Origin: Methanoculleus formosensis
Lineage (GTDB): Archaea > Halobacteriota > Methanomicrobia > Methanomicrobiales > Methanoculleaceae
NCBI RefSeq assembly: GCF_025384765.1
Contig: NZ_VHLL01000002.1
Location: forward strand, 186,001-250,000
DNA: 64,000 nucleotides
Reading direction: 5' to 3'
Of this stretch, positions 22,104 to 38,695 are shown piece by piece. Numbering within the stretch: the stretch's first letter is position 1; every line of letters starts with the position of its first letter. Position numbers and translations under genes: made by a program. The notes under the pieces were generated by a model. That model did not search any database. It saw only the letters and a program-made list of their open reading frames with translations, and was not told the DNA's origin.

Positions 22104-22124
22104 CCCGACTGAGTGCGGGCCCGT

Positions 22125-23060
22125 ATGAGATCGAGAACGTGGGTGCCCCTGGTGGGCATCATGGTAGTGCTGCTTGTCTCCTGTGCCGTCTCCGTTACCG
22201 CACAGGAGGCAGCGGATCCGGGTACACTCCGGATAGCAACGACGACGAGCCTCTATGATACGGGGCTTCTCGACGAACTTGAACTGATGTACGAGAACAC
22301 CTCCGACGTGGACGTGCAGATCACCGCCCAGGGCACCGGCCAGTCGCTCGATACCGCGCGACGCGGCGATGTCGACCTGGTCCTCGTCCATTCGCCGTCG
22401 CTTGAGCAGCAGTTCATCGACGAAGGCTACGGCATCAATGAGCGGTGCTTCGCCTACAACAACTTCATCATCGTCGGGCCCGCGTCCGACCCGGCGGGGA
22501 TCGCGAACATGACCCCGGACGAAGCGTTCAGGGCAATCTACACCGCAGGCACGAACCAGACGCCGGGCGTCTCGTTTGTCTCCCGTGGTGACGATTCCGG
22601 GACTCACACCCGGGAGAAGGAGATCTGGGCGGCGGCCGGCTACAACTATACCACCGACATCCAGGACTCCGGGGACTGGTACCTCGAGACCGGGAGCGGC
22701 ATGGGCGAGACCCTGACCATCACCAACCAGCGGGAAGCCTACACCCTCTCCGACATCGGGACTTACCTCGCCTTCCAGGACCAGTTGAACCTCGTGCAGC
22801 TGGTGACGGAGGGTGACGAGCTCATGAACCGCTACAGCGCAATCGCGGTCAACCCCGAGATGGCGCAGGGCGTCAATATCGATGAGGCGAACCGGTTCAT
22901 CGACTGGATCACCACGAACGAGACCAAGGAGTTCATCGGGAACTTCGGCGTCGAGGAGTTCGGCCAGCCGCTCTTTACCCCACTGTACGCTCCCGAATGC
23001 ACGGAACCGCCGTTCAACTGCACCACCTGCTCATCAGGAGAGACGAACACTACGGCGTGA
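22125..23060 (+). CDS. TupA-like tungstate/molybdate-binding protein, copy 1
   Basis: A 311-residue substrate-binding protein of a TupABC-type ABC importer. It begins with a signal sequence; LLVSC could be a lipobox, otherwise cleavage is after TAQ. The mature part starts with the oxyanion-binding signature LRIATTTSLYDTGLLDEL, followed by GTGQSLDTARRGDVDLVLVH and SRGDDSGTHTREKEIW, the segments that contact the anion in TupA and related proteins. It is adjacent and in tandem to a second copy at 23240, and both end with an APECTEPPFNC tail. It has its own promoter and no permease of its own, so it may share TupBC with copy 2. I chose ATG 22125 over GTG 22113 from the TATA distance. Confidence 0.88.
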   Translation: MRSRTWVPLVGIMVVLLVSCAVSVTAQEAADPGTLRIATTTSLYDTGLLDELELMYENTSDVDVQITAQGTGQSLDTARRGDVDLVLVHSPSLEQQFIDEGYGINERCFAYNNFIIVGPASDPAGIANMTPDEAFRAIYTAGTNQTPGVSFVSRGDDSGTHTREKEIWAAAGYNYTTDIQDSGDWYLETGSGMGETLTITNQREAYTLSDIGTYLAFQDQLNLVQLVTEGDELMNRYSAIAVNPEMAQGVNIDEANRFIDWITTNETKEFIGNFGVEEFGQPLFTPLYAPECTEPPFNCTTCSSGETNTTA

Positions 23061-23202
23061 CGCGGGATACAGGCTCCCGTCACCGGTCTTCATCCGCCGG
23101 GCGGGGGAACTCATCCCCCAACCTTCTGCGGCCGCCCGGCCCCGGCGAACCCTCCGGCTTCCCCCGTAGTTGATCGAAATTCATTGACCCCACGGAAGAG
23201 AT

Positions 23203-23213
23203 AACTATTTATG
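23203..23213 (+). promoter_or_regulatory. TATA-like element of the second tupA gene
   Basis: AACTATTTATG lies about 32 bases before the ATG at 23240. Spacing again suggests a leaderless or nearly leaderless transcript. Confidence 0.45.
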
Positions 23214-23239
23214 GGTGAGCTGCGTGCTAACGCGCTGTT

Positions 23240-24205
23240 ATGAAGACGAACGTTGCCATTCTATCAACTCTCGCCATCGCGATCCTGCTCATTCTCGCCG
23301 CCTGTGCAGGATGCACGGGGACGGCGCCGGACGGGAACGCGACACCGAGTGCCACGACCGCTCCCGCCGGTGGGGCGAACCTCGTGCGGATCGCCACCAC
23401 GACGAGCCTTGAGAACACCGGGCTCCTCGCGGAGCTCGAACGGGTCTATGAGAACGAGACCGGGGTCGACCTCCAGTTCATCTCCCAGGGCACCGGGCAG
23501 TCCATCGACTCCGGGAGGCGCGGCGACGTCGACCTGGTCCTCGTCCACGCCCCGGATCTTGAACAGCAGTTCATCGACGACGGCTTCGGGATCAACCCGC
23601 GGTGCATCGCCTACAACTACTTCATCATCGTCGGCCCCGAATCCGACCCGGCGGGGATCGCGAACATGAGCCCGATGGAGGCCTTCCAGGCGATCTATAC
23701 CGCCGGCACGAACCAGACGCCAGGCGTCGCCTTCGTCTCCCGCGGCGACAACTCGGGCACCCACTCCCAGGAGAAGACGCTCTGGAAGGAGGCGGGCTAC
23801 AACTACACGACCGATATCCTGGACTCCGGTGCCTGGTACGTCGAGGCCGGCAAGGGCATGGGCGACACCCTGATCCTCGCAAACGAGCAGCAGGCATACA
23901 CGCTCTCCGATGAGGGAACCTATCTCTCGTTCGCAGACAGGCTCACCCTGGTCCCGGTCGTCGCCGAGGGCGCGGAACTCCTCAACCGCTACAGCGCGAT
24001 CGCCGTCAACCCTGAAAAGCACGCGGGCGTGAACGCACAGGGGGCAGCGGACTTCATCAACTGGCTTACCACGAACGAGACGAAGCAGATGATCGGGGAG
24101 TTCGGCACCGAGGAGTTCGGTAAACCGCTCTTCACGCCACTCTACGCGCCCGAGTGCACCGAGCCACCGTTCAACTGCACCTGCGCGGAGCCGGTGACGC
24201 CGTAA
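23240..24205 (+). CDS. tupA: Tungstate/molybdate ABC transporter, substrate-binding lipoprotein TupA, copy 2
   Basis: A 321-residue lipoprotein. The lipobox-like LAACAGC near residue 25 and a Thr-rich spacer precede the binding domain, which shows VRIATTTSLENTGLLAELERV, GTGQSIDSGRRGDVDLVLVH and SRGDNSGTHSQEKTLWK. It differs from copy 1 at the first binding loop (SLENTG against SLYDTG), which might alter affinity. The permease and ATPase genes follow directly, so this is the cognate binding protein of that importer. The C-terminus ends with a cysteine pair (FNCTCAE) partly shared with copy 1. Confidence 0.9.
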   Translation: MKTNVAILSTLAIAILLILAACAGCTGTAPDGNATPSATTAPAGGANLVRIATTTSLENTGLLAELERVYENETGVDLQFISQGTGQSIDSGRRGDVDLVLVHAPDLEQQFIDDGFGINPRCIAYNYFIIVGPESDPAGIANMSPMEAFQAIYTAGTNQTPGVAFVSRGDNSGTHSQEKTLWKEAGYNYTTDILDSGAWYVEAGKGMGDTLILANEQQAYTLSDEGTYLSFADRLTLVPVVAEGAELLNRYSAIAVNPEKHAGVNAQGAADFINWLTTNETKQMIGEFGTEEFGKPLFTPLYAPECTEPPFNCTCAEPVTP

Positions 24206-24260
24206 GTCTCAGGAGCAGGATGGAGAGCGAGGTGACGGGGAGCCGGGAGGGTGAGTTCGC

Positions 24261-24956
24261 ATGGTGAACGGGAACCCGATCATCGAGGGGTTCATCGAGG
24301 CGATCGAACTCATCATCGCCCTCGACCCCCAGGTGGTGGAGATTACCATCCGCTCGCTCTACGTCTCTCTCACCGCCACCTTCTTCGCGGCGCTGATCGC
24401 GCTTCCCATCGGCGCGTTCATCTACTTCTACGACTTCCGGGGGAAGCACGCGGTCGTCTCCCTCCTGCAGACTCTCTACGCCCTCCCGACAGTCATCGTG
24501 GGCCTGGTCATGTTCCTGATGCTCTCGAACATCGGCCCCTTCGGATTCCTCCGCCTCCTCTACACCCCCGGGGGCATGATCGTCACCCAGACGGTCCTGA
24601 TCATACCCCTTCTGATGGGGCTGACGGTCTCGGCGCTCTCCGGGATCGACCGGGACAAGCGCTACACGATCACCGCCCTCGGTGCGAGCAGGCTCCAGAC
24701 GATCATGACGATCATATCGGAGGCCCGGTTCGCGGTCATGGCCGGCGTCCTCCTGGGGTTCGGGCGGGCCATCGCTGAGGTGGGGTCGGTGATGATCGTC
24801 GGCGGGAACATCCGGGGCGCCACCCGCGTCCTCACCACGGCGATCACGCTCAACACGTCGATGGCGAACTACTCCCTCTCGATCGCACTCGGGATCATCC
24901 TCCTCTCGGTGGCGCTCGGGGTGAATATCGCGCTCTCCCTGGTGCAGAGGAGGTGA
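24261..24956 (+). CDS. tupB: Tungstate ABC transporter permease TupB
   Basis: A 231-residue integral membrane protein with about five to six helices. The ABC-permease coupling region is visible as the EAA loop SRLQTIMTIISEARFAVMAGVLLGFGRAIAEVGSVMIVGG; its GFGRAIAEVG core docks on the ATPase. It would form the membrane channel with the ATPase encoded five bases downstream. Length is typical for TupB. The ATG at 24261 is preceded by GGGAGGGTGA. Confidence 0.93.
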   Translation: MVNGNPIIEGFIEAIELIIALDPQVVEITIRSLYVSLTATFFAALIALPIGAFIYFYDFRGKHAVVSLLQTLYALPTVIVGLVMFLMLSNIGPFGFLRLLYTPGGMIVTQTVLIIPLLMGLTVSALSGIDRDKRYTITALGASRLQTIMTIISEARFAVMAGVLLGFGRAIAEVGSVMIVGGNIRGATRVLTTAITLNTSMANYSLSIALGIILLSVALGVNIALSLVQRR

Positions 24957-24960
24957 TGGG

Positions 24961-26046
24961 ATGGCGATCATAGAGGCACACGGCATACGGAAGTCCTACG
25001 GCAGCCTTCTCGCCCTGCACGACGTCGATCTCACGGTCGGAGAGGGGGAGATCCTGGCGCTCATCGGACCGAGCGGCTCCGGGAAGAGCACGCTTCTCCG
25101 CGTCCTCGACCTGATAGAGCCGGCAGACGAGGGAAGACTCTCGGTCTTCGGCATCGAAGTGGCCAGCGAGCGCGGCAGCTGGCTCGACCTCCGCCGCCGG
25201 ATGGGGATGCTCTTTCAGAGGCCGATCGTCTTCAACGCGTCCGTCTACGACAACGTCGCGATGGGGCTCCGATACCGGCGGGCCTCCGGCGAGGAGATCG
25301 ACCGGAGGGTGAAGGAAGCCCTCGAAGCCGTCGGACTCTCCCGCTACATCAAGAGCCGGGCGACCGACCTCTCCGGCGGTGAGCAGCAGCGGGTGGCGCT
25401 CTCAAGGGTGCTCGTGACCGACCCCGAGATCCTCTTCCTGGACGAACCGACCGCGAACCTGGACCCGACGTCGACCGCCACCATCGAGGAGATCGTGATG
25501 CGGCTCAACCGCGAGGCCGGGATGACCGTCCTCATAAGCACCCACGACCTCGCGCAGGGGCAGCGGCTCGCCCACCGGGTCGGGGTGATGATCGAGGGGA
25601 CGATCGCCCAGACGGGAGCCTCCAGCGATGTATTCCGCGCACCGAAGGACCGGAGGATCGCCCGGTTCGTGGGCGTCCAGAACATCATCCCCGGCCGGGT
25701 CGTCTCCCGGACCGAGGGGCTCACCACGGTGGAGGCGGGCGGGAGGCAGATCCTCTCGGCGACCCCGCCGCCCGCCGACGAAGTCGAGATAGTCATCCGG
25801 GGCGAAGACGTCTCCCTGCACCGGAGGGAACCCATGCACGAGGAGGCGGAGAACCTCTTCCCGGCCATGGTCACCCGTATCGAACCTGCGGCGCCGTTTG
25901 TCAACGTGACCATCAGTTGCGGGTGCGATCTCGTCGCGCTCGTGACGGCGAGACGGGGGGATGCCCTCGGACTTCGTGAGGGGATGGGGGTCTGGATCTC
26001 CCTCCAGGCGAAGGCGGTTCACCTCATCCCCCTGACCGGACACTGA
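24961..26046 (+). CDS. tupC: Tungstate ABC transporter ATP-binding protein TupC
   Basis: A 361-residue ATPase. Walker A GPSGSGKST near residue 37, Q-loop region LFQRPIVFN, signature LSGGEQQR near residue 140, Walker B ILFLDEPTANLD near residue 160 and the switch histidine STHD near residue 193 are all intact. After residue 240 the C-terminal part contains a TOBE/MOP-like beta domain (VVSRTEGLTTVEAGG; VTRIEPAAPFVNVTISCGCDLVALV) that may sense the oxyanion and shut down uptake. The start is four bases after the tupB stop. Confidence 0.94.
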   Translation: MAIIEAHGIRKSYGSLLALHDVDLTVGEGEILALIGPSGSGKSTLLRVLDLIEPADEGRLSVFGIEVASERGSWLDLRRRMGMLFQRPIVFNASVYDNVAMGLRYRRASGEEIDRRVKEALEAVGLSRYIKSRATDLSGGEQQRVALSRVLVTDPEILFLDEPTANLDPTSTATIEEIVMRLNREAGMTVLISTHDLAQGQRLAHRVGVMIEGTIAQTGASSDVFRAPKDRRIARFVGVQNIIPGRVVSRTEGLTTVEAGGRQILSATPPPADEVEIVIRGEDVSLHRREPMHEEAENLFPAMVTRIEPAAPFVNVTISCGCDLVALVTARRGDALGLREGMGVWISLQAKAVHLIPLTGH

Positions 26047-26169: not shown

Positions 26170-27237
26170 ATGAAAAAATCGAATTTAATGGCTTTTATCG
26201 CCCTCATCGTCGCTGTCGCGGTCCTGTTCTGCGGCTGCACGGGGACGACCGACGACCAGACGACGACCCCCACGCCGACGGCAACCGCCGCCGAAGACGT
26301 CCAGGTGAAGATCTTCCACGCCGGAAGCCTGACCGGACCGTTTGAGAAGGTGAAAGCAGAGTTCGAAGTTGAACATCCCGGCGTCACCGTGCTCCTCGAG
26401 CCCGCCGGCAGTGTCGACTGCATCAAGAAGATCACCGAGAACGGCAAACCCGCCGACGTCCTCGCCTCCGCCGACTACGCCCTCATCCCGGAGATGATGC
26501 TGCCCGATCACGCCGACTGGTACCTGACGTTTGCGAAGAACCGGATGGTGCTCACCTACACGAACGAGAGTAAGTACGCCGACGAGATTACCGCCGAGAA
26601 CTGGTACGAGGTCCTCGACCGCGACGGCGTCCGGTGGGGCTTCTCCGACCCGAACTCCGATCCCTGCGGCTACCGCACCCCGATGGTGATCCAGCTCGCC
26701 GAGGCTTACTATGAAGACGACCAGATCTTCGAGACCCTTGTCAGCGAGCACAGCGCGATCACCGTCACCGAAGAGAACGGCACCTACACGATCCACGCCG
26801 CCGACCCGAAGCCCGACAGCACCACCCTGACGATCCGGCCTAAGAGCGTCGAGTTAGTCCAGATGGTTCAGGCCGGCGGACTTGACTACGCCTGGGAGTA
26901 CCGGAGCGTTGCCGTCCAGAACGACCTTCAGTTCATCGAGCTCCCCGAGGAGATCGACCTCTCGGCCGTCGCATTTGCGGATAACTACGCGACCGTCCAG
27001 ACCGAGGCGAAGAAGGGCGACGGCACGACGCTCTACGTGGGCTCGCCGATCGTCTACGGCGTGACCGTCCCGAAGATCGCGGAGCACCCCGACCTCGGCG
27101 TTGCGTTCGTCGAAATGTTGATCGGCGCTACCGGCCAGGAGATCCTCGAGCGCGACGGCCAGCCCCCGATCGTCCCCGCGGACGGTTACGGCACCGTTCC
27201 GGCCGAGCTCCAGTCGCTCGTTACGGTCAACCCCTGA
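26170..27237 (+). CDS. wtpA: Molybdate/tungstate ABC transporter, substrate-binding protein WtpA
   Basis: A 355-residue lipoprotein of the archaeal WtpA/ModA type. The lipobox-like VLFCGC near residue 20 is followed by a Thr-rich spacer, then VKIFHAGSLTGPFEKVKAEFE (first oxyanion loop), LLEPAGSVDCIKKI, and PADVLASADYALIPEMM. WtpA proteins bind molybdate and tungstate in an octahedral site and often prefer tungstate. The later segments GLDYAWEYRSVAVQ and YGVTVPKIAEHPDLGVAFVEMLI are also family-typical. It heads the wtpABC operon. Confidence 0.95.
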   Translation: MKKSNLMAFIALIVAVAVLFCGCTGTTDDQTTTPTPTATAAEDVQVKIFHAGSLTGPFEKVKAEFEVEHPGVTVLLEPAGSVDCIKKITENGKPADVLASADYALIPEMMLPDHADWYLTFAKNRMVLTYTNESKYADEITAENWYEVLDRDGVRWGFSDPNSDPCGYRTPMVIQLAEAYYEDDQIFETLVSEHSAITVTEENGTYTIHAADPKPDSTTLTIRPKSVELVQMVQAGGLDYAWEYRSVAVQNDLQFIELPEEIDLSAVAFADNYATVQTEAKKGDGTTLYVGSPIVYGVTVPKIAEHPDLGVAFVEMLIGATGQEILERDGQPPIVPADGYGTVPAELQSLVTVNP

Positions 27238-27240
27238 CCT

Positions 27241-27250
27241 CTCTCTTTTT
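27241..27250 (+). terminator. T-rich tract after wtpA
   Basis: CTCTCTTTTTCCC just after the wtpA stop could attenuate transcription so that the binding protein is made in excess over the downstream permease and ATPase. Confidence 0.35.
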
Positions 27251-27304
27251 CCCAAAACAGGCTTTCTGTGAAGCGTGCATAACCAGTACAACACGATCAC
27301 GAAG

Positions 27305-28186
27305 ATGAAGACCGAAACGCTCTCAACCGAACCCCTCCCGGCAGGCGAGGAGGCGAACGTTACCCGCTGGAACGAGTATCGGGGGCGGTATCTCGATTGG
27401 TGCATCGTCGGGTTCTGCATTATGGGCGCGGCGATCGTCGGGATAACGGTGCTTGCCATCGCCAACATCACGATGACGGAACTCGCCGACCCGGCCCATC
27501 TCCTCAAGGTCGCAGCGTCATCGGAGGTGATCGGGTCTATCCTCCTCACGTTCGGCGCGGGGGCGAGCGCCGTCCTCCTCCTTATCCTCTTCGGGACACC
27601 GCTTGCCTACGTTCTCGCCCGGGCCCGCCCCTCCCGGCTCAAGGGTGCCGTCGAGAGCATCGTCGACATCCCGCTCATCCTGCCGCACACGGTGGCGGGC
27701 CTGCTCGTCTACCTCCTCTTCATGCGCCGGGGATGGCTCGGCGCGCCGCTCTCGGAGATCGGGCTTGCGTTCGAGGACGCGCTCCCGGGGACGATCGTCG
27801 CGATGCTCTTCGTCGCCTCGCCGTTCTACGTCAACTCCATGCGGGAAGGGTTTGAGAAGGTGCCGGTCCACCTGGAGAACGTCGCCCGCACGCTCGGGGC
27901 GGGCACCTTCACGGCGTTCTGGACGGTCACCCTCCCCTTAAGCCTCCGGCACATGTACAGCGGGGCCATCCTCGCCTGGGGGAGGGCGATCGGCGAGTTC
28001 GCCGGCGTCATCATGATCGCCTACTACCCGTTCATCGTATCGACGCTGATCTACTACTCATTCACGACGGACGGCATCCACACGAGCAGGAGCATCGCGT
28101 TTACGGTCATCCTGGTCAGTTTCGGAGTATTCTACCTCCTGCGAAGGATGACCCGGTACTTAGGGAGGTACGATGATAGAGTTTGA
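27305..28186 (+). CDS. wtpB: Molybdate/tungstate ABC transporter permease WtpB
   Basis: A 293-residue membrane protein with about six helices after a polar N-terminal 37 residues. The helix pattern and the conserved ILPHTVAGLLVYLLFMRRGWLG segment match WtpB/ModB permeases, and the EAA coupling loop is seen as ENVARTLGAGTFTAFWTVTLPLSLRHMYSGAILAWGRAIGEFAGV. The start is uncertain: ATG 27305 gives MKTETLST, GTG 27275 adds ten residues. The 3' end overlaps wtpC by 14 bases. Confidence 0.92.
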   Translation: MKTETLSTEPLPAGEEANVTRWNEYRGRYLDWCIVGFCIMGAAIVGITVLAIANITMTELADPAHLLKVAASSEVIGSILLTFGAGASAVLLLILFGTPLAYVLARARPSRLKGAVESIVDIPLILPHTVAGLLVYLLFMRRGWLGAPLSEIGLAFEDALPGTIVAMLFVASPFYVNSMREGFEKVPVHLENVARTLGAGTFTAFWTVTLPLSLRHMYSGAILAWGRAIGEFAGVIMIAYYPFIVSTLIYYSFTTDGIHTSRSIAFTVILVSFGVFYLLRRMTRYLGRYDDRV

Positions 28187-29240
28187 CCGTGTATCGCTCA
28201 CACTCGGCTCGTTCCGCTTAAACGACGTCAGCCTGAGGATCGGGAAGGGCGACTACTACTTCATCGTCGGGCCGTCGGGGGCGGGAAAGACGGTGCTCCT
28301 CGAAGCGATCGCCGGGCTTCACCGGCCGGAGAGTGGCCGCGTCCTCCTCCGGGGCGAAGAGATCACCGCCCTCCCCCCGGAGATGCGGAAGGTCGCCCTC
28401 GTCTACCAGGACTACTCGCTCTTCCCGAACATGCGGGTCATCGAGAACGTTTCCTATGGTCTCCGGGTGCAGGGGATGCGGAAGAAGGAGGCCCGGGCCG
28501 AGGTCGCCCCTCTCCTCGAACGGTTCGGGATCGCTCACCTTGCGGACCGCTACCCGGGGACGCTCTCCGGCGGGGAGCAGCAGCGGGTGGCGCTTGCACG
28601 GGCCGTCGCGGTGAAACCCGACATCCTCCTCCTCGACGAACCGCTCTCGGCCCTCGATCCCATCACGCAGGAGAAGTTCATCGCCGACCTCAAGCGGCTT
28701 CACCGGGAGGACGGGCTCACCGTCGTCCAGGTGAGCCATTCGCGCCGGGAGGCGCATCTCCTCGCCACCCGGATGGCGGTGATCATCGACGGGGCGCTCG
28801 TGGACGAGGGAGAGGCCGGTGTCGTGCTGAACGCGCCGAGGAGCCGGGAGGTCGCGTCGTTCGTCGGGATCGAGAACATCCTGGACGGAACGGTGACGGC
28901 AAACGAGGATGGGCTCGCGACGGTGGACGTCGGCGGACTGGTCTTCGAGGCGGTGACGGACGCCGCCGCGGGTGAGGAGGTCACGCTCTGCATCCGGGCC
29001 GACGACGTCGTCCTCGCCGTCGGGAATGACCGGCGCACCAGCGCCCGAAACAGGATGTCCGGGACGGTCGTCTCGGTCGCGGAGAACGGTCCCGTCGCCG
29101 AGGTGCGGGTTGACGCGGGCGTCATGCTCACCGCGGTCCTGACCCGGCGGTCGGTGCAGGAACTCGGCCTCGTTCCGGGAACCCCCCTCACCCTCTCCGT
29201 GAAGGCGACGGCGATCCATGTCATCCATTCTTTTTCTTGA
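28173..29240 (+). CDS. wtpC: Molybdate/tungstate ABC transporter ATP-binding protein WtpC
   Basis: A 355-residue ATPase with Walker A GPSGAGKTV near residue 31, Q-loop VYQDYSLFPNMRV, signature LSGGEQQRVALARA near residue 130, Walker B ILLLDEPLSALDP and switch VSHSRREA. Residues after 235 form a TOBE/MOP-type regulatory domain. It overlaps wtpB and has the strong ribosome site GGAGG before the ATG at 28173. The 3' end runs 20 bases into the convergent SemiSWEET gene. Confidence 0.95.
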   Translation: MIEFDRVSLTLGSFRLNDVSLRIGKGDYYFIVGPSGAGKTVLLEAIAGLHRPESGRVLLRGEEITALPPEMRKVALVYQDYSLFPNMRVIENVSYGLRVQGMRKKEARAEVAPLLERFGIAHLADRYPGTLSGGEQQRVALARAVAVKPDILLLDEPLSALDPITQEKFIADLKRLHREDGLTVVQVSHSRREAHLLATRMAVIIDGALVDEGEAGVVLNAPRSREVASFVGIENILDGTVTANEDGLATVDVGGLVFEAVTDAAAGEEVTLCIRADDVVLAVGNDRRTSARNRMSGTVVSVAENGPVAEVRVDAGVMLTAVLTRRSVQELGLVPGTPLTLSVKATAIHVIHSFS

Positions 29241-29475
29241 GCGAGAGGGTGAGCCCGACCAGAACGGCTGTCGCGGCGTTCGCCGCAACGATGGCAGGAT
29301 CCCCTCTCACCACCCCGTAGGCAAGCCAGAGCAGAACGCCAGCGAGGAGGACGACGAGCATACCAAGCGAGAGGTCGCCGGTCGAGCGCGTGCGCCACGC
29401 CCGGACGGCCTGCGGCGCGAACGAGAGTGTCGTGAGCGTGCCGGCGAGAAGGCCGAGTGCGGTGACGGTGTCCAT
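29221..29475 (-). CDS. SemiSWEET-type small transporter (PQ-loop family)
   Basis: An 84-residue three-helix membrane protein. The PQ-loop motif is seen as LSFAPQAVRAWRTRSTGDLSLGM at residues 17-39, with helices 1 and 3 (VTALGLLAGTLTTLSF; AIVAANAATAVLVGLTL). SemiSWEETs work as homodimers that move sugars or similar small molecules. The gene converges on wtpC and overlaps its end by 20 bases. The substrate is not predictable. Confidence 0.85.
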   Translation of the reverse strand: MDTVTALGLLAGTLTTLSFAPQAVRAWRTRSTGDLSLGMLVVLLAGVLLWLAYGVVRGDPAIVAANAATAVLVGLTLSLKKKNG

Positions 29476-29617: not shown

Positions 29618-30751
29618 TCATGACCGGGGCGCCCCCACCTTTCCCCACCGCTCCAGCGCATATGCAAGGACCATCCCGACGATGAACGCGACGGTGAGAC
29701 CGACCACGAGGGTGAGGACGGCGATGACCCCCGTGACCAGGTAAGACTCCGTCTTCGCGCTGTGCTTCCCGAGTTCGAGCGCCACGAAGACCAGGAGCCC
29801 CCCGAATACCCCGAACGGGATGAGGGTCAGGACCTCCGGCGGGGCGAAGGCGACGGCGAAGATGAGGATGAAGAGCCCGGCGATGATGTTCGCCCCGCCG
29901 GTCCTCGCGCCGAACCGGTACATCGCCGCGAGCCCCCCGGCGCCGTGGCACATCGGGAACCCGCCGAGCGGCGTCGAGACCAGGTTCATGGCGCCGATCG
30001 TCCGGGAGAGCCGGTCGGGATCGACGCCCTTCTTCGGGAAGAGGTCGTAGGTGAGGAGGGACGTCGCAAGGATGGCATTCGCGATCGTGAGCGGTATCTG
30101 TGGGAGGACGAGATCCCAGGTGCCAGCGATGAAGTCCGGCAGCGCCGGGATGATGAGTTCGGGAAGCGGCATCAGCCGGAACGGTGGCATCCCCTGGACG
30201 ACGATCCCGGCGACAAGCCCGATGATGAGGACAAGGAGGGCGGAGATGTCCGGGATCCGGGTACGTTGCGACGCGATGAAGAAGGCAACGATGACCGCGA
30301 TCGCGAGCACTGCAACGAGCGGGTCGGCGACGATGTAGCCGAGCGACGTCCGGAGGAGGAGGAGCGCGAGGCCTGCCTGGACACCGCGGATGACGCTTCT
30401 CGGGATCCGGCCCTCAAGCCAGGCCATCCCGCCGACGAGGCCGATCGCGAGGAAGAGCACCCCGACGATGATCCCCGAGGCCACGATCTCGCCGGCACAG
30501 AGGCCTTCCGCGATGACGACGGCGCCGATCGCCTTCATCGGCTCGATGGGGATGGGAAGGCGGTAGTAGAGCCCGGTGATGATGAACCAGGCGGCGACGA
30601 AGAGGAAGAAGTGGCTGACGTTCACGTCGGGGCAGACGATCGCGACGCCGAGCAGGATGGGGAAGATGGTGCCGAAGTCGCCGACGGCTCCTGCGATCTC
30701 TTCGAGGGTAAACCGGATGCCTCGCTCCTCCGTTCCAGTGCTCTCCGCCAT
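29618..30751 (-). CDS. MOT1-family molybdate/sulfate permease
   Basis: A 377-residue membrane protein with about ten to eleven helices. Motifs matching the MOT1 (molybdate transporter) family are FTLEEIAGAVGDFGTIFPILLGVAI near residue 15 and PIPIEPMKAIGAVVIAEG near residue 75, and a later GGFPMCHGAGGLAAMYRFGARTGGANI segment. MOT1 proteins of plants and algae are high-affinity molybdate importers. The location inside the Mo/W transporter region supports molybdate or tungstate as substrate; sulfate cannot be excluded. The start at 30751 (MAESTG) has GAGGGAG upstream; an earlier start at 30814 is unlikely. Confidence 0.88.
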   Translation of the reverse strand: MAESTGTEERGIRFTLEEIAGAVGDFGTIFPILLGVAIVCPDVNVSHFFLFVAAWFIITGLYYRLPIPIEPMKAIGAVVIAEGLCAGEIVASGIIVGVLFLAIGLVGGMAWLEGRIPRSVIRGVQAGLALLLLRTSLGYIVADPLVAVLAIAVIVAFFIASQRTRIPDISALLVLIIGLVAGIVVQGMPPFRLMPLPELIIPALPDFIAGTWDLVLPQIPLTIANAILATSLLTYDLFPKKGVDPDRLSRTIGAMNLVSTPLGGFPMCHGAGGLAAMYRFGARTGGANIIAGLFILIFAVAFAPPEVLTLIPFGVFGGLLVFVALELGKHSAKTESYLVTGVIAVLTLVVGLTVAFIVGMVLAYALERWGKVGAPRS

Positions 30752-30856
30752 ACGTAATCTCCCTCTATGTCTCCTCTCCTTATTGGGGATTGTGGAAGGA
30801 GACCTCCCCATCATAAATGTTGCCGGTGTACCTTTTCCGTAGGTCTCTCAGGGTAA

Positions 30857-30876: not shown

Positions 30877-31054
30877 GGCGAATGTAAACGCTTATTTTGA
30901 CCTATCGGGTAATAATCTCTATGGAAACGCACCACCCTTCCGTTCTTCCGCTGGCATTTACGGCAACGTTCGCTACATCCTGCAGGTGTGCCGGACTGCT
31001 CGCCTCCATCACCCCGACGGGGATGAGACCCTGACGGGAGAGGAGCATGAGACC

Positions 31055-31567
31055 ATGGAGACCGCCACCTACCGGGTCATCGGAACGATCCACTCGCCGT
31101 TCACCGACGGGGATACAACGCCCATCCAGAGCATCTTCTCTGAAGCAGAGGGGACGATCGAGGTCTCCCCCGGGTACGCCGACGGGCTGGAGGGGCTTGA
31201 CGGGTTCTCCCACATCTACCTCCTCTACCACTTCCACCGGGTAAACGGGTTCTCCCTGCGCCAGCGCCCGTTCGCCGACGGCAGCAAGGAGCGCGGGATC
31301 TTTGCCATACGCCACTGCAACCGCCCGAACCCCATCGGGATCTCCCTCGTCGAGGTCATCGCCGTCGAGGGCAGCACCGTCCGGGTCCGCGGGATCGATG
31401 TGCTGGATGGAACGCCGCTCCTCGACATCAAGCCCTACGTCCGCCAGTTTGACCACCGTGACACGGTCAGGAGCGGGTGGGTTGACGCGCGGCGCATCGA
31501 GGAGATGAAGGGGCGGAGTTTCACGCCGGAGGATCTCCGGGAGGATGAGGAATCCTCGCGAACCTGA
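31055..31567 (+). CDS. trmO: tRNA m6t6A37 methyltransferase TrmO family protein
   Basis: A 170-residue protein of the UPF0066/VirR/TrmO family, whose bacterial member methylates N6 of threonylcarbamoyladenosine 37 in tRNA(Thr) using SAM. Signatures: the beta-barrel start YRVIGTIHSPF, the charged region EGLDGFSHIYLLYHFH near residue 48, RHCNRPNPIGISLVEV near residue 90 (SAM-side motif), and DVLDGTPLLDIKPYVRQFD near residue 115. I chose ATG 31055 (METATYRV), which begins at the conserved region; the ORF extends 23 residues further upstream without conservation. The role of the neighbouring metal transporters is not linked in any obvious way. Confidence 0.9.
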   Translation: METATYRVIGTIHSPFTDGDTTPIQSIFSEAEGTIEVSPGYADGLEGLDGFSHIYLLYHFHRVNGFSLRQRPFADGSKERGIFAIRHCNRPNPIGISLVEVIAVEGSTVRVRGIDVLDGTPLLDIKPYVRQFDHRDTVRSGWVDARRIEEMKGRSFTPEDLREDEESSRT

Positions 31568-31596: not shown

Positions 31597-32535
31597 CTAC
31601 CCGGTCGCGGCGCCCTTCTCCAGGCCCACGGCCTCCGGCCCGGCATCCCCCCACTTCTTTTCGTCGAGGAGGTCTTCGGCCTTCAGGTGCTCGACGACGG
31701 TATCGAGGTACTCGGAGACGATCCGGTCCCTCTCGGGGATCTCCCGGATCCAGACCCGCACCGCCAGCCGGACCCACTCCTCCTTGATCGACGTCACCTG
31801 CATCTTCGGCTCGAAGATAGCAAGGCCGGAACGGGGAAAGTCAGAGGAGAGGCGCCCGATGTAGGGGAGGTCGAAGAGACTCTGGACCGCCAGGTGCTCG
31901 GCCGGCCCGACGTGCGGCAGGATCCGGGGATGGTCGCGGGCCGCCGCGAGGGCTATCTCCTCCACCCGCCCGAGATCCGTGGTGACCGGGACGGAGAGCG
32001 GGATCGAGATCTCCTGGAGCCCAGCGCGGGAGTAGTTGATCACCTTCGAGGTGATGATGCTCGAGTTCGGGGTGAGGATCAGGCCGCCGTCGAGCCCTTT
32101 CAAGGTCGTCGTCGTGAAGGAGATGTCCTGCACCTTGCCGGGCCCGGTCTCCGGCCTTCCGCTGACGATCACCCATTCCTCGAGCTGGACCGGACGGTTG
32201 ATCGTGATCAGGATGCCGGCGATGGCGTTCTGGATGATCTGGCGCGATGAGAAGGCCAGCGCGATACCGAAGATACCGAGCGATGCCGCAAAGGCTTTCG
32301 GGTCGAAGGCGAGGAAGTGCCGGGCGCTCGCATAGATCCCCCCGACGATGATCCCGTACTGCAGGATGGCCGCCATCCATTTGGCCGTCCCGCGGGAGAC
32401 CCGGCCGTCGAGCGCCCGCCGGATGAGGAGGTAGGCAAGGTTGCCGAGGAAGAGAAAGGCGACAAAGGTGAGGATGAACGCGAGGAACGCGTCAAGGCTA
32501 ACCCCCCCGATGAAGGCCGGGAAAATATCCTGCAT
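31597..32535 (-). CDS. MscS-family mechanosensitive channel, copy 1
   Basis: A 312-residue small-conductance mechanosensitive channel. Three predicted helices in the first 115 residues are followed by the pore-lining and cytoplasmic MscS signature ASLGIFGIALAFSSRQIIQNAIAGILITINRPVQLEEWV, a beta domain (TTTTLKGLDGGLILTPNSSIITSKVINYS) and a C-terminal alpha/beta domain. The channel would open under membrane tension to release solutes after osmotic downshock. It lies directly downstream of a close paralogue (39-base gap), so they form an operon. Confidence 0.93.
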   Translation of the reverse strand: MQDIFPAFIGGVSLDAFLAFILTFVAFLFLGNLAYLLIRRALDGRVSRGTAKWMAAILQYGIIVGGIYASARHFLAFDPKAFAASLGIFGIALAFSSRQIIQNAIAGILITINRPVQLEEWVIVSGRPETGPGKVQDISFTTTTLKGLDGGLILTPNSSIITSKVINYSRAGLQEISIPLSVPVTTDLGRVEEIALAAARDHPRILPHVGPAEHLAVQSLFDLPYIGRLSSDFPRSGLAIFEPKMQVTSIKEEWVRLAVRVWIREIPERDRIVSEYLDTVVEHLKAEDLLDEKKWGDAGPEAVGLEKGAATG

Positions 32536-32574
32536 GTAGAAAGGAGTGAGAGACGGGAGGATTAATCCCTTCCG

Positions 32575-33459
32575 TCACGACATCTCGGCCTTGACCGGGA
32601 TCCCTTCGGCCTGCAGGCGGCCAAGGACTTCTCTGAGGTAACGTGACGCGATCTCGTCTTTCTGCGGGAATTTCTTGATCCAGACCCGGACGGTCAACTT
32701 GATCCAGCCGTCGGTGACCGAGACGAGCTGGACGGCAGGCTCCAGGTGCGCAAGGTCCGGGCGCTCGGAACGGAGGCGCCTGTTGTAGGGGAGGCCGAAG
32801 AGGTCCTGGACGGCGGAACGCCCGTTCCGATCGAGGTTCTGGATGATCCGCTGGTCGTCACGGGCTGCCGCAAGGGCGATCCCGCGCACCTGCGCGAGGT
32901 CTGCACTGACCGGGACGGAGAGCGAGACGCGGATCTCCTGGAGTTCGCCCCGGGAGTAGTTGATCACCTTCGAGGCGATGATGCTCGAGTTCGGCATCAA
33001 GACCAGCCCGCCGTCGAGCCCCTGGAGGATCGTCGTCGTGAAGGAGATGTCGCGTACCTTGCAGAGCCCCGTCGAAGGCAGTTCCCCGACGACGATCCAC
33101 TCTTCGAGCTGGACCGGGCGGTTGATCGTGATCAGGATACCGGCAAGGACGTTCTGGATGATCTGGGTCGACGAGACGGCGACGATGATGCCGATGATAC
33201 CGAGCGATGCGGCGACGGCCGTGAGATCGAAGGCGAGGAGGTAGCGCGCGCTCGCATACGCCCCGCCGATGATGACGGTATACTGCAGGATGGCCGCCGC
33301 CCACTTGGCCGTTCCCGGGGAGGCGCGCCCGTCGAGTGCCCGCCGCAGGAGCATGTAGGCGAGGTTGCCGAGGAAGAGGAAGGCGACAAGGGCGAGGAGG
33401 AACGTAAAGAATGCATCAAGGGGCACCCCACCGATGAGGACCGGATCACTCGTCTGCAT
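32575..33459 (-). CDS. MscS-family mechanosensitive channel, copy 2
   Basis: A 294-residue paralogue of the neighbouring channel, alike along its whole length (LALVAFLFLGNLAYMLLRRALDGRASPGTAKW; AVSSTQIIQNVLAGILITINRPVQLEEW; LVLMPNSSIIASKVINYSRGELQEI). The pore region differs at GIIVAVSSTQ against GIALAFSSRQ, which may give different gating or conductance. The pair is a recent tandem duplication. A possible winged-helix protein is encoded 27 bases upstream. Confidence 0.92.
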   Translation of the reverse strand: MQTSDPVLIGGVPLDAFFTFLLALVAFLFLGNLAYMLLRRALDGRASPGTAKWAAAILQYTVIIGGAYASARYLLAFDLTAVAASLGIIGIIVAVSSTQIIQNVLAGILITINRPVQLEEWIVVGELPSTGLCKVRDISFTTTILQGLDGGLVLMPNSSIIASKVINYSRGELQEIRVSLSVPVSADLAQVRGIALAAARDDQRIIQNLDRNGRSAVQDLFGLPYNRRLRSERPDLAHLEPAVQLVSVTDGWIKLTVRVWIKKFPQKDEIASRYLREVLGRLQAEGIPVKAEMS

Positions 33460-34126: not shown

Positions 34127-34150
34127 TACTTCTTCACCCCATAACCAACT

Positions 34151-34171
34151 GATATACCAGCAGATATACCA
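34151..34171. promoter_or_regulatory. Direct repeat GATATACCA-n3-GATATACCA
   Basis: Two exact nine-base copies separated by GCA lie between the divergent 78-residue gene and the MoSto-like gene. On the minus strand each reads TGGTATATC, so one copy is probably the TATA box of the minus-strand gene, and the pair could bind a regulator. A separate TATA-like ATACTTAATACTTACG follows at 34176-34191 for the plus-strand gene. Confidence 0.45.
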
Positions 34172-34220
34172 CGAAGATACTTAATACTTACGCCCGCATA
34201 CGCTATGTAGGAGATTAACC

Positions 34221-35027
34221 ATGGCAGAGCGTTTTGAGATGGGATCGAGACTCAAGGGTGAGAGCCTGGTTCGGCGGAGCCTGCTCCGCGCGACCGGGGA
34301 GGTCCGGCAGATCCGGATCATGCCGGATTTAAACGTGGTCAAGATCGGCGGCCACGGCGTCATCGATTACGGGCGGGCGGTCGTTCACCCGCTGATGGAG
34401 GAGATCGGCGAACTCTCCCGGGACCACAAGATCGTGGTCGCCACCGGCGGCGGCGCCCGGGTCCGGCACATCCTCGATGTCGGGATCGACCTCGGGATGC
34501 CAACGGGGGTGCTCGCGGAACTCGCGGGCAAGATCAGCGAGCAGAACGCTACCATGATCTCGCTTCTCCTCTCGAAGTACAACGGCGTCCGGATCAGCAC
34601 CGGCGAACTCCTGAACCTCCCCTCGCTCATATCCCTTGGTATGCTCCCGGTCGTCCAGGGCACCCCGCCCTACGGCCTCTACGAGCACCCGCCGAAACTC
34701 GGCAGCATCCCGCCGCACCGGACGGATACCGGCGCCTTCCTGATGGCGGAGGTCGTCGGCGGAAAGAACTGCATCCTCGGGAAGAACGTGAACGGCCTCT
34801 ATACCGAGAACCCGTTCCTGAACCCCGACGCCGAGTTCATCGCGGATATCACGGCCGATGAGCTCCTTGAGATGCAGCTCGAAGATATGGTCCTCGAACC
34901 GATGGCGGTCGAACTCCTCCGCGACGCCGTCCATATCAGAGAGATCAAAGTGGTGAACGCCCATGTCCCCGGCAACATCACGAAGGCCGTCAACGGGGAG
35001 CGGGTCGGCACCATCATCCGGGCCTGA
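34221..35027 (+). CDS. Molybdenum-storage-protein-like amino acid kinase family protein
   Basis: A 268-residue protein with the amino-acid-kinase/UMP-kinase fold. Several stretches match the MosA/MosB subunits of Azotobacter molybdenum storage protein as I remember them: LNVVKIGGHGVIDYGRA near residue 36, VATGGGARVRHILDVGIDLGMP near residue 74, SIPPHRTDTGAFLMAE near residue 160, NVNGLYTENP near residue 190, and the C-terminus HIREIKVVNAHVPGNITKAV. MoSto stores polyoxomolybdate or tungstate in an ATP-driven cage. The position between Mo/W transporters supports a metal-oxyanion role. A uridylate kinase is the alternative, and such genes are often annotated that way. Confidence 0.75.
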   Translation: MAERFEMGSRLKGESLVRRSLLRATGEVRQIRIMPDLNVVKIGGHGVIDYGRAVVHPLMEEIGELSRDHKIVVATGGGARVRHILDVGIDLGMPTGVLAELAGKISEQNATMISLLLSKYNGVRISTGELLNLPSLISLGMLPVVQGTPPYGLYEHPPKLGSIPPHRTDTGAFLMAEVVGGKNCILGKNVNGLYTENPFLNPDAEFIADITADELLEMQLEDMVLEPMAVELLRDAVHIREIKVVNAHVPGNITKAVNGERVGTIIRA

Positions 35028-35107: not shown

Positions 35108-35806
35108 ATGACCATCTATCTCGGCATCGACGACACCGACACCCTCGAGTCCCGGGGCACCGGACGGCTCGCCCGTGCAATTGCAGCAGAACTCGCCCGA
35201 TCGTATACGGTTACGGGGGTGACCCGGCACCAGCTCTTTGTTCATCCTGCCGTCCCGTATACCTCCCACAACAGTTCCGCGGTCATCCATATCCGGGATA
35301 CCGAAAACGTGATCGCAGGCGACGTCTTCGCGACGGCAAAGGAGATGATGCTCGCCGACTTCATCGAGGGGAGCGACCCGGGCATCTGTGTCGCTGCCGG
35401 CCCCGAGATCAACGGCGACCTCTCTCGCTTCGGGTTTGCCGCGAAGACGAGCATCGTGACGCAGAAAGAAGCGCGCACGCTCGCCCGCGATGCCGGAATC
35501 CTCCTCGAAGGGCTCGGCGGGACAGAGGACGGCGTCATCGGCGCGCTTGCCGGGGTCGGGCTTGCGGCATCGGGGAACGACGGCCGGTTCGTCCAGAAGG
35601 GGACGACCCGGGACCTCCGCGGCAGCCAGACCATCGCCGCGATCCTGGCCTCCGGTGTCGACCGGGTCGAGACCCGCGAGGGGGCGGCGGTCGGCGAGGG
35701 CACCATCAACTTGCGGAAGTTCCCGAAGCCCGCGTTCATCGGGGGAAAGGCGATCCTCTACGTCGAGGCGGACGGCGACGGCTACCGCGATATCGTGATG
35801 GGCTGA
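35108..35806 (+). CDS. GxDDTD-motif protein resembling the TiaS kinase-like domain
   Basis: A 232-residue protein beginning MTIYLGIDDTDTLESRGTGRLAR. The GIDDTD motif is the hallmark of the N-terminal domain of archaeal TiaS, which uses ATP to activate C34 of tRNA(Ile2) and attach agmatine. TiaS itself is about 420 residues and has further OB-fold and zinc-ribbon domains, which are absent here, so this is a stand-alone relative with a different role. The C-terminal half is Gly-rich (GLGGTEDGVIGALAGVGLAASGNDGRF). The genes on both sides concern Mo/W. It could be a phosphotransferase; the substrate is unknown. Confidence 0.6.
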   Translation: MTIYLGIDDTDTLESRGTGRLARAIAAELARSYTVTGVTRHQLFVHPAVPYTSHNSSAVIHIRDTENVIAGDVFATAKEMMLADFIEGSDPGICVAAGPEINGDLSRFGFAAKTSIVTQKEARTLARDAGILLEGLGGTEDGVIGALAGVGLAASGNDGRFVQKGTTRDLRGSQTIAAILASGVDRVETREGAAVGEGTINLRKFPKPAFIGGKAILYVEADGDGYRDIVMG

Positions 35807-35931
35807 GGAACTTATCAATAATATCCCTTTTACCGTAACGCGATGTAAAATGAATTAACCACATTATGTTTCCATTAACCCAAACCACATCTATTTTAAT
35901 GCATGTATTACGATACTTCTGTCTGATAACT

Positions 35932-36855
35932 ATGCACAGACGAATTATTTTTGCCGTTGCGACCATCATGGTCGCCCTCATGCTTATTTGCGGCTGTACC
36001 GGGACGACAACCGACCCGACGCCCGTAGAGAAGCAGCAACTCCGTATCGCCACGACGACGAGCCTCTATGACACCAAGCTCCTCGACCACCTCACCCCGA
36101 TCTTTGAGGAGAAGTACAACGCCGAGGTGCTGGTCGTCTCCGCCGGGACCGGCAAGGCGCTCGAGTATGGGCAGCGCGGCGACGTGGACGTCATGATGGT
36201 GCACGACCGTGCCCGTGAAGACACCTTCATCGCCGACGGCTACGGCATCGACCGGCGCGTCTTCGCTTACAACTACTTCGTCCTCGTCGGGCCCGAGTCC
36301 GACCCGGCAGGCGTCAAGGCGATGGCTCCTGAAGCAGCGTTCACCGCCATCCGCGAGAAGGGAATGGCCGACAAGAACGTCGTCTTCGTCTCACGCGGCG
36401 ACGCGTCCGGCACGCACTCCAAGGAGAAGGCCATCTGGAAGGCCGCCGGGTTCAACTACTCTGCGGACGTGCAGGGCTCCGGCGACTGGTACCAGGAGGC
36501 CGGGACAGGCATGGGCGCGACCCTGACGATGACAAACGAGAAAGAGGCCTACACCCTCTCCGACATCGGGACGTATCTTGCCTACAAGGGCGATCTCAAA
36601 CTCGTGACGCTCGTGGATGAGGGCGACATCCTGCTCAACGTCTATTCCGTGATGCAGATCAACCCCGAGAAGTTCCCCGAGACCAACAGCACCATCGCGA
36701 AGGACTGGATCAACTTCCTCATCTCCGACGACATCCAGAAGGAGATCGGCTCCTTCGGCGTCGACAAGTATGGCCAGCCGCTCTTCTACGCCGCCCAGAA
36801 CGACTGGGAGAAGATTGGCGTGGCCGAGGCTGAAGTGAAGAACCCGGTCGCCTGA
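35932..36855 (+). CDS. Tungstate/molybdate ABC transporter, substrate-binding lipoprotein TupA, copy 3
   Basis: A 307-residue lipoprotein (MLICGC lipobox-like site near residue 20). It shows LRIATTTSLYDTKLLDHLTPI, GTGKALEYGQRGDVDVMMVHDRARED and SRGDASGTHSKEKAIWKAAGF. It is the most divergent of the three copies: the QS of GTGQS is replaced by KA, and the C-terminal cysteine tail is missing. The closest permease and ATPase follow it, so it belongs to the second TupABC importer. I chose the ATG at 35932 because it starts the signal peptide and lies about 36 bases after a TATA-like CTATTTTAAT. Confidence 0.9.
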   Translation: MHRRIIFAVATIMVALMLICGCTGTTTDPTPVEKQQLRIATTTSLYDTKLLDHLTPIFEEKYNAEVLVVSAGTGKALEYGQRGDVDVMMVHDRAREDTFIADGYGIDRRVFAYNYFVLVGPESDPAGVKAMAPEAAFTAIREKGMADKNVVFVSRGDASGTHSKEKAIWKAAGFNYSADVQGSGDWYQEAGTGMGATLTMTNEKEAYTLSDIGTYLAYKGDLKLVTLVDEGDILLNVYSVMQINPEKFPETNSTIAKDWINFLISDDIQKEIGSFGVDKYGQPLFYAAQNDWEKIGVAEAEVKNPVA

Positions 36856-36875
36856 ACGGGCCATAAACCCCACTC

Positions 36876-36882
36876 ATTTTTG
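36876..36882 (+). terminator. T-rich tract after tupA copy 3
   Basis: CTCATTTTTGCC between tupA and tupB could partly end transcription, leaving the binding protein in excess over the permease. Confidence 0.35.
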
Positions 36883-36912
36883 CCTCCGCGAGATCAGAGA
36901 TAGGTGCAGAAG

Positions 36913-37614
36913 ATGTACGAGATCGTTGAGGGGGTCCTGGAGGCGCTCAGGCTCATCGTCACGCTCGACCCCGACGTGATGGCCATCGCCGTGCGGAGCA
37001 TTGTCATATCGCTCACCGCAACGATCATCGCCTCGATCTTCGCCATTCCGCTCGGGGCCGCGATCAACTTCGGAACGTTTCCGGGCAGGAAGAGCCTCAT
37101 CAACCTGATCCAGACGCTCTACTCTCTTCCGACAGTCATCGTCGGGCTGCTGATATTCCTGCTCATCTCCCGTGTCGGGCCGTTCGGCTTCATGCGGCTG
37201 CTCTTCACCCCGACCGCGATGATCATCGCCCAGACGATCCTGATCCTCCCGATCATGACCGGCCTCACGATCTCCGCGCTCTCGGCTGTCGACCCGGTGA
37301 TCAGGGATACCCTCCGGTCGCTCGGAGCTACAAGGCTCCAGTTCCTGGTGAACGTCTTAAAGGAGGCCCGGTTCGCGATCCTTGCGACCGTCGCGGTCGG
37401 GTTCGGGCGGGCGATATCGGAGGTCGGGGCGGCGATCCTCGTCGGCGGCAACATCGCGGCGTCGTCGTTTGCGAGTTCGACCCGGGTCCTGACGACCGCG
37501 ATATCGCTCGAGACCTCGATGGGCAACATCTCCCAGTCGATCGCGCTCGGGATCGTCCTGCTTGTGATCGCCCTCGGCGTGAATCTCGCCATAACCACGG
37601 TGCAGCACCGGTGA
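36913..37614 (+). CDS. tupB: Tungstate ABC transporter permease TupB, copy 2
   Basis: A 233-residue membrane protein similar along its length to the TupB at 24261 (SLPTVIVGLLIFLLISRVGPFGFMRLLFTP against the corresponding ALPTVIVGLVMFLMLSNIGPFGFLRLLYTP region, read separately). The EAA loop is LRSLGATRLQFLVNVLKEARFAILATVAVGFGRAISEVGAAILVGG. The ATG at 36913 (MYEIVEG) is preceded by GGTG; a GTG at 36904 adds three residues. It is closely followed by its ATPase gene. Confidence 0.92.
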   Translation: MYEIVEGVLEALRLIVTLDPDVMAIAVRSIVISLTATIIASIFAIPLGAAINFGTFPGRKSLINLIQTLYSLPTVIVGLLIFLLISRVGPFGFMRLLFTPTAMIIAQTILILPIMTGLTISALSAVDPVIRDTLRSLGATRLQFLVNVLKEARFAILATVAVGFGRAISEVGAAILVGGNIAASSFASSTRVLTTAISLETSMGNISQSIALGIVLLVIALGVNLAITTVQHR

Positions 37615-37618
37615 TACC

Positions 37619-38695
37619 ATGATCGAACTCGATAACGTCTCAAAGTATTTCGGCGATACCCGGGTGCTCGACGGCGTCACCGGGAAGGTGAACCGGGGCG
37701 AGATCTTCGCCATCATCGGCCCCTCCGGGTCGGGGAAGTCGACCCTGCTGCGCCTCATCGATCTCCTCGATACCCCGACGGGAGGGGCGATCCGGATCAG
37801 CGGAACCGAGATCCACGCGCAGCACGAGAAGGATCTCTCCATCCGCAGGATGATGGGGATGGTCTTCCAGAAACCCGCCGTCTTCAACGCGACGGTCGCG
37901 GAGAACGTCGCCGTCGGCCTCCGGTTCCGCGGCGCGAGCAAGAGCGAGATCGATGCCCGTATCGGGGAGGCCCTCGATACGGTCGGACTTGCGAGCTACC
38001 GGGAGCGGCGGGCAAGGACGCTCTCGGGCGGGGAGATGCAGCGGGTGGCGCTTGCCCGGGCGATGGTGATCGAGCCCGAGATCCTCCTCCTCGACGAACC
38101 GACCGCGAACCTCGACCCGGTCTCGGTGGCGATGATCGAGAATCTGGTGGTGCGGATCAACCGCGACCTCGGGACGACGATCGTCTTCTCCACCCACGAC
38201 ATGTACCAGGGCCAGCGGCTCGCCCACCGGATAGGGGTGCTGATGAACGGGGTGTTTTCGCAGGTGGGGACGCCGCGGGAGGTCTTCACTCTCCCGGCAA
38301 GCCGCGAGGTCGCCCGGTTCGTCGGTATCGAGAACATCGTCGAGGGCGTCGTCGTCAGCGAGAACGGCACCTCGGCCGTCGATGCGGGAGGTATCCGCAT
38401 CCGGGCACGGTCGCCGTTCGGGGCGGGGGAGGCGGTCAGCCTCTGCATCCGCTCTGAGGATATCCGAATCGCCCCGGCGATCCGGGGGAGGAGGGTCTTT
38501 GACGGGAACATCCTCCCCGGCACCGTGACGTCCGTCGTCCCCCGCGGCCCGTTCAGCAGGGTGACGGTCGATTGCGGGTTCGCGCTCTCGTCCATCCTCT
38601 CCTGGAAGAAGGTGGATGACCTGGATATCCGGGAGGGGAGCCAGGTCGTGGTCTCGTTCTCGCCGGAGTCGGTTCACGTCGTCCGGCGGGAGTGA
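37619..38695 (+). CDS. tupC: Tungstate ABC transporter ATP-binding protein TupC, copy 2
   Basis: A 358-residue ATPase paralogous to that at 24961. Walker A GPSGSGKST near residue 35, the family-specific VFQKPAVFNATVAENVAVGLR, signature LSGGEMQRVALARA near residue 138, Walker B ILLLDEPTANLDP and STHD switch are intact. The TOBE/MOP-like C-terminus is retained (VVVSENGTSAVDAGG; VTSVVPRGPFSRVTVDCG). The gene starts four bases after tupB. It completes the second TupABC importer. Confidence 0.93.
   Translation: MIELDNVSKYFGDTRVLDGVTGKVNRGEIFAIIGPSGSGKSTLLRLIDLLDTPTGGAIRISGTEIHAQHEKDLSIRRMMGMVFQKPAVFNATVAENVAVGLRFRGASKSEIDARIGEALDTVGLASYRERRARTLSGGEMQRVALARAMVIEPEILLLDEPTANLDPVSVAMIENLVVRINRDLGTTIVFSTHDMYQGQRLAHRIGVLMNGVFSQVGTPREVFTLPASREVARFVGIENIVEGVVVSENGTSAVDAGGIRIRARSPFGAGEAVSLCIRSEDIRIAPAIRGRRVFDGNILPGTVTSVVPRGPFSRVTVDCGFALSSILSWKKVDDLDIREGSQVVVSFSPESVHVVRRE

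Follow-up and report, generated by a model that had tools for sequence, protein, structure and literature searches.

A single-gene archaeal member of the molybdenum storage protein family in a molybdate/tungstate transport region of Methanoculleus formosensis, with a conserved small partner and a candidate regulator

Does an archaeal molybdate/tungstate transport region encode a molybdenum storage protein (MoSto), and could one kind of subunit serve where the bacterial protein uses two, MosA and MosB? The question is raised by a locus of Methanoculleus formosensis that was analyzed within a window of 64 kb (the whole stretch of DNA studied, 64,000 nucleotides). The open reading frame at 34221..35027 on the + strand begins with ATG at 34221, stops at 35027 and has a ribosome-binding-like AGGAG shortly 5' of the ATG. 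Its product, P0001, contains VATGGGARVRH, IPPHRTDTGAF and VVNAHVPGNITKAV, and translation thus recovered the 268-residue reading frame and the three motifs quoted in the original prediction.

The family of P0001 was determined using phmmer against the PDB, a phylogenetic tree and an AF2 model. The top PDB matches were MosB (221 bits, E 1.6e-64) and MosA (156 bits, E 1.3e-44), and UMP kinases (UMPKs) scored at most 39 bits (E 5.8e-9). P0001 was 38-44% identical to MosB and about 36% identical to MosA, as against 20-25% for UMPKs. In a tree of 91 rows, the UMPKs were split off at 100/100 from the archaeal proteins, MosA and MosB. When the AF2 model (pLDDT 91, pTM 0.88) was compared with known structures by Foldseek, MosB (TM 0.92, 1.4-1.7 A) and MosA ranked first, and UMPK structures were the next best fold matches, with TM at most 0.71. 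Orthologues in the other genomes of the genus that carry the gene were 82-96% identical to P0001. With this identity in the genus, an E value of 1.6e-64 to MosB and the gene carried by 152 of the 232 genomes in the class, the match is far beyond chance. P0001 is a member of the MoSto clade and represents its archaeal branch.

Residues were compared by aligning P0001 and the archaeal rows with 18 MosA, 18 MosB and 7 UMPK rows. The Asp of the UMP pocket, present in 7/7 UMPK rows (D66 in the genome's own PyrH), is A99 in P0001 and Ala or Ser in the other MoSto rows. The MoSto insert PPYGLYEHPPKL (P149-L160), which precedes the RTD.GAF segment, was filled in the archaeal, MosA and MosB rows and was a gap in 7/7 UMPK rows. 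P0001 also fell below the NCBIfam cut-offs for UMPK (TIGR02076, 61.2 bits vs 158.05; TIGR02075, 46.2 bits vs 243.9), and the true pyrH gene lies elsewhere in the genome (C12:36899-37561, 269 bits). The original prediction that P0001 resembles MosA and MosB rather than UMP kinase is borne out by its sequence, tree position, fold and insert and by the absence of the UMP-pocket Asp. The lack of any other pyrH, which it had named as a point that would count against a storage protein, does not hold for this genome. Its warning that such genes are easily labelled uridylate kinase was also justified: when scanned against NCBIfam, the MosA and MosB of Azotobacter themselves matched no MoSto model, just pyrH/UMPK and other amino-acid-kinase models below cut-off, and MoSto genes are therefore likely to be mislabelled.

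The transport setting proposed for the gene was found to be denser than described, with Tup clusters on both sides of MoSto and an extra TupA. Upstream on the + strand are a tungstate-type ABC importer, TupA, TupA, TupB and TupC (22113..26046; NCBIfam TupA 205-206 bits, cut-off 400; Pfam PBP, permease and ABC+TOBE), and a molybdate/tungstate ABC importer, WtpA, WtpB and WtpC (26170..29240; WtpA 432 bits; Pfam). These are followed by a MOT1-type molybdate permease on the - strand (29618..30814; PF16983 174.5 bits, cut-off 30). A second TupA, TupB and TupC set lies beyond MoSto on the + strand (35866..38695; NCBIfam TupA 195 and TupB 160 bits), its TupC being assigned by position and ABC-type sequence. 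The TupA and TupB matches are clear yet under the equivalog cut-offs, and WtpA and MOT1 pass the curated cut-offs. TupA, TupB, WtpA or MOT1 was found in 33 of 35 archaeal MoSto loci (flanks of about 8 kb) and in 0 of 20 controls, 18-kb stretches taken from the same phylum (Fisher P = 5e-13, a value that overstates independence, since the 35 loci are related). The link between MoSto and importers holds over several families and gene orders.

The original prediction counted one subunit gene, and the genome search gave the same result: P0001 is the sole copy, with no second MoSto-like gene found in the M. formosensis genome. Among the 232 genomes of the class, the 152 that carry the gene nearly always have it in single copy. 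The archaeal MoSto is dispensable, because 80/232 genomes gave no match. Relatives from other families of the phylum were full length and scored above 300 bits, vs at most 55 bits for UMPKs, which leaves a clear gap. Genus g8 has tandem MoSto pairs, 79-86% identical, which arose within the archaeal group (97/91) and independently of MosA/MosB. The best 80 of 436 candidate relatives in the contig scan were all bacterial mosB loci, and among these best 80 mosA adjoins mosB in 79, the exception being near a contig end. Such mosB genes with an adjacent mosA (L062-L141) are common in Pseudomonadota beyond Azotobacter, including Bradyrhizobium, Azospirillum, methanotrophs and Nitrobacter. UMP kinases are homohexamers, and a homohexamer is therefore plausible for P0001.

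The best tree groups MosA with MosB (99/99 in 91 rows, 92/80 in 45 rows), which speaks against P0001 as an orthologue of MosB specifically, but AU tests rejected neither a grouping of the archaeal proteins with MosB (P = 0.18) nor one with MosA (P = 0.36), and a pre-duplication origin of the archaeal line is therefore not claimed. Two MoSto copies (G087:C50 and G194:C1) had an in-frame TGA or were truncated, which suggests decay or assembly error in single lineages. No report of an archaeal MoSto was found in the literature searched.

The ATP-site residues of P0001 are as in MosB, namely the first-strand Lys K41, the glycine loops G76-G78, K188, D222 and E226, and the MosB pattern is also kept at G43, G44, R80, R82 and H83. 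K41 corresponds to the Lys that is changed in a variant of known structure in the PDB, beta-K42S (Kb42S). The cluster site is different. His140 of MosA is presumably the position of the three His that hold W3. His156 and Glu129 of MosA bind Mo8 covalently, and W3 on three His has also been reported (PMC4504029). In P0001, His156 is replaced by Gly152, Glu129 by Ser126, His130 by Thr127 and His140 by Leu136, and these positions are unconserved in archaea. Because His156, Glu129 and His140 of MosA are unconserved, the cluster chemistry must differ in archaea, and it is unlikely that P0001 would hold the same clusters as MosA at that site. At P0001 positions 126 and 146, His is found in many of the other archaeal proteins, and another cluster site using other residues is possible in archaeal MoSto.

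Divergent from the MoSto gene lies h78 (P0002; 33890..34126, - strand), which encodes a conserved protein of 78 aa with the invariant residues R6, R8, P18, A24, H41, R43 and E48. It belongs to no known family: searches of Pfam and NCBIfam gave no match, the PDB gave none of significance by sequence, and the fold model was poor (pLDDT 69), with no PDB match under E 0.001. Among the 232 genomes, 151 had both MoSto and h78, 1 had MoSto alone, 4 had h78 alone and 76 had neither; these counts, like those for h117 below, come from related genomes and are not independent events. The four genomes with h78 alone were assemblies of 62-84% completeness. Co-occurrence persists without adjacency, the two genes being on different contigs in G044 and about 10 kb apart in G055, and the unit duplicated in genus g8 is h78-MoSto. 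Genus g22 has two h78 genes with one MoSto gene.

Next after h78 is the candidate regulator h117 (P0003; 33487..33840, - strand), a winged-helix-like protein of 117 aa with a weak HTH_Crp_2 match below the Pfam cut-off and the conserved core PTTRxLAExLxxPHYYVLP. MoSto and h117 were both present in 144 of the 232 genomes; 8 had MoSto alone, 9 had h117 alone and 71 had neither. The h78/MoSto intergenic region contains a candidate operator (34143..34176, no strand assigned), a palindrome-like YCANNTGRTATAYCANNTGR with an overlapping second copy, conserved in the genus and in other families. In the 64-kb window alone the palindrome was not significant (5 matches at <=4 mismatches vs 0-5 in shuffles), and the candidate operator rests on comparison across genomes. 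In most h117-bearing loci, over several families, the palindrome lies 25-44 bp before h78, and it stays with h78-h117 where MoSto sits elsewhere (L047, L049, L158, L162, L164 and L165). Where the stretch contains no h117 (L034, L035, L048, L159, L160 and L168), palindrome scores were at background only, and two loci with h117 elsewhere in the genome (L037 and L052) had weak sites. Within the f4 pairs, the palindrome was found only at the pair adjoining h117. Extra copies were found 79-158 bp before TupA or TupB (L038, L039, L041, L043, L053 and L175), and in L158 a copy was also found 79 bp ahead of MOT1. Since the palindrome tracks h117 and has copies before TupA, TupB and MOT1, these comparisons suggest that h117 binds it and that the regulon would concern Mo/W. 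The protein and its site may thus define a candidate Mo/W regulon, which would include TupA/TupB and MOT1 in some genera.

Both h78 and h117, neither of which was listed in the original prediction, are probably part of the MoSto system. They were absent from beside bacterial mosAB in the loci examined, and neither a description of the two proteins nor a report of an h117-type regulator was found in the literature searched. What is new here is h78 co-occurring with MoSto, together with h117, whose presence tracks the upstream palindrome. The widespread archaeal MoSto branch, with its one-subunit design, near-constant small partner and likely regulator, is real.

The genome has two mcrA copies, and the host is therefore a methanogen. 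It also has four FwdB/FmdB (formylmethanofuran dehydrogenase) paralogs above cut-off, which implies that W and Mo are needed. Loading of bacterial MoSto requires ATP hydrolysis; the protein binds more than 100 Mo, also takes up W and releases metal above pH 6.8, and deletion of mosAB lowers Mo accumulation and raises sensitivity to W (PMC6448029). The reading that we favor, with a probability of about 0.7, is that P0001 is an ATP-driven Mo/W storage homo-oligomer which clusters oxyanions supplied by the nearby importers. Family, single gene, conserved context and co-occurrence are established directly; the most likely arrangement of cage, ATP use, metal and regulation would be as follows. P0001 would form a hexameric cage from one subunit kind and bind ATP at its MosB-like site. 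The Wtp, Tup and MOT1 importers would deliver molybdate and/or tungstate, which P0001 would draw into oligomeric oxo-clusters at the expense of ATP. The metal would later be released to enzymes that use Mo or W, for instance the four formylmethanofuran dehydrogenase paralogs. Control of both divergent sides, h78 and MoSto, would probably be exerted by h117 via the conserved palindrome.

Other readings of the locus were weighed against this one. P0001 could be a MoSto-fold oxyanion sensor or buffer. It would then bind ATP together with a small number of molybdate or tungstate ions and pass a signal to h117 or the importers, without forming polynuclear clusters. The loss of the cluster-holding residues of MosA and the tight coupling of MoSto with a putative regulator and palindrome are in its favor, and h78 could relay the signal; however, P0001 retains the ATP-site residues and the MoSto insert, and archaeal cluster pockets could use other residues, such as the His found at 126 and 146 in many members. 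We consider this reading unlikely, while giving it some weight. An improbable alternative is a hetero-oligomer in which the single MoSto chain pairs with a second subunit, either unrelated or far diverged, that replaces MosA. One example of such a subunit would be h78, in view of its presence in 151/152 MoSto genomes, its duplication with MoSto in g8 and its invariant Arg6, Arg8, His41 and Arg43, but it is too small to stand in for a 270-aa subunit of the cage wall, it has no fold match, and the genome gave no score for any other MoSto-like partner.

That P0001 is a kinase of the amino-acid-kinase family recruited to the locus, acting on UMP or on another small molecule, is very improbable. 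A common superfamily, a Pfam AA_kinase match and sub-threshold UMPK matches are what such a reading can draw on. The UMP kinase reading itself was ruled out by the PDB scores, the NCBIfam results (61 bits vs a cut-off of 158 for TIGR02076), the separate pyrH, the tree, the residues and the fold. PyrH and P0001 have the amino-acid-kinase fold in common, but differ in the insert, the UMP-pocket Asp and the low identity.

P0001 can be compared with two known storage systems. With the MosAB of Azotobacter vinelandii and other Pseudomonadota, P0001 shares family, fold, length, N-terminal segment, MoSto insert and ATP-site residues, and its identity to MosB there is about 44%. However, the archaea have one gene where bacteria have mosB and mosA side by side, the Mo8-binding His and Glu of MosA are unconserved in P0001, and P0001 belongs to a methanogen, where it is placed with Tup/Wtp/MOT1, h78 and h117. 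The Tub/Mop molbindins, TOBE-domain proteins, share a presumed role in Mo/W storage, but they have an unrelated fold and about 70 aa. Tub is a tungstate-storing hexamer (PMC11980592) and holds eight single oxyanions at subunit interfaces, in contrast to clusters in a cage.

Taken jointly, the data would allow a bolder picture, which we regard as possible but lean against. A methanogen one-subunit MoSto homohexamer would store W or Mo, with h78 as an obligate partner in loading, gating or unloading that makes good the cage's loss of cationic cluster-binding residues. h117 would be a new Mo/W-responsive archaeal regulator binding YCANNTGRTATAYCANNTGR upstream of both h78-h117 and MoSto and, in some genera, also of TupA/TupB, and the MosA/MosB pair of bacteria would have arisen as a specialization of such a homomer, either later or in parallel. 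If true, a single-gene MoSto in methanogens, whose methane production depends on W/Mo enzymes, would extend biological polyoxometalate storage to Archaea, make a simpler cage available for engineering and provide natural versions with one gene and with two for probing the bacterial need for two subunits. With the 78-aa partner, and with a regulator whose DNA site is defined, direct tests of archaeal Mo/W homeostasis become possible.

Several other features of the region were observed. Two tandem TupA-like binding proteins (22113-24205) precede a single TupB-TupC set. A short TiaS/methanogenesis-marker-11-like protein (35108..35806, + strand; TIGR03280 47.7 bits, cut-off 255.8) is a recurrent neighbor, beside MoSto or h78 in many loci. 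A small PQ-loop (SemiSWEET-like) membrane protein (29221-29475, - strand) lies between WtpC and MOT1, is kept in the genus, and its gene overlaps the 3' end of WtpC with its own. TrmO (TsaA; 30986-31567, + strand) recurs next to a Wtp-like permease/ATPase pair in the MoSto loci of several genera (L040, L042, L044-L046, L048, L172 and L174). Between the importers and MoSto are two tandem mechanosensitive-channel genes (31597-33459, - strand), which are found in only part of the genus, and their place is taken by a Wtp-like pair in some other species (L172 and L174).
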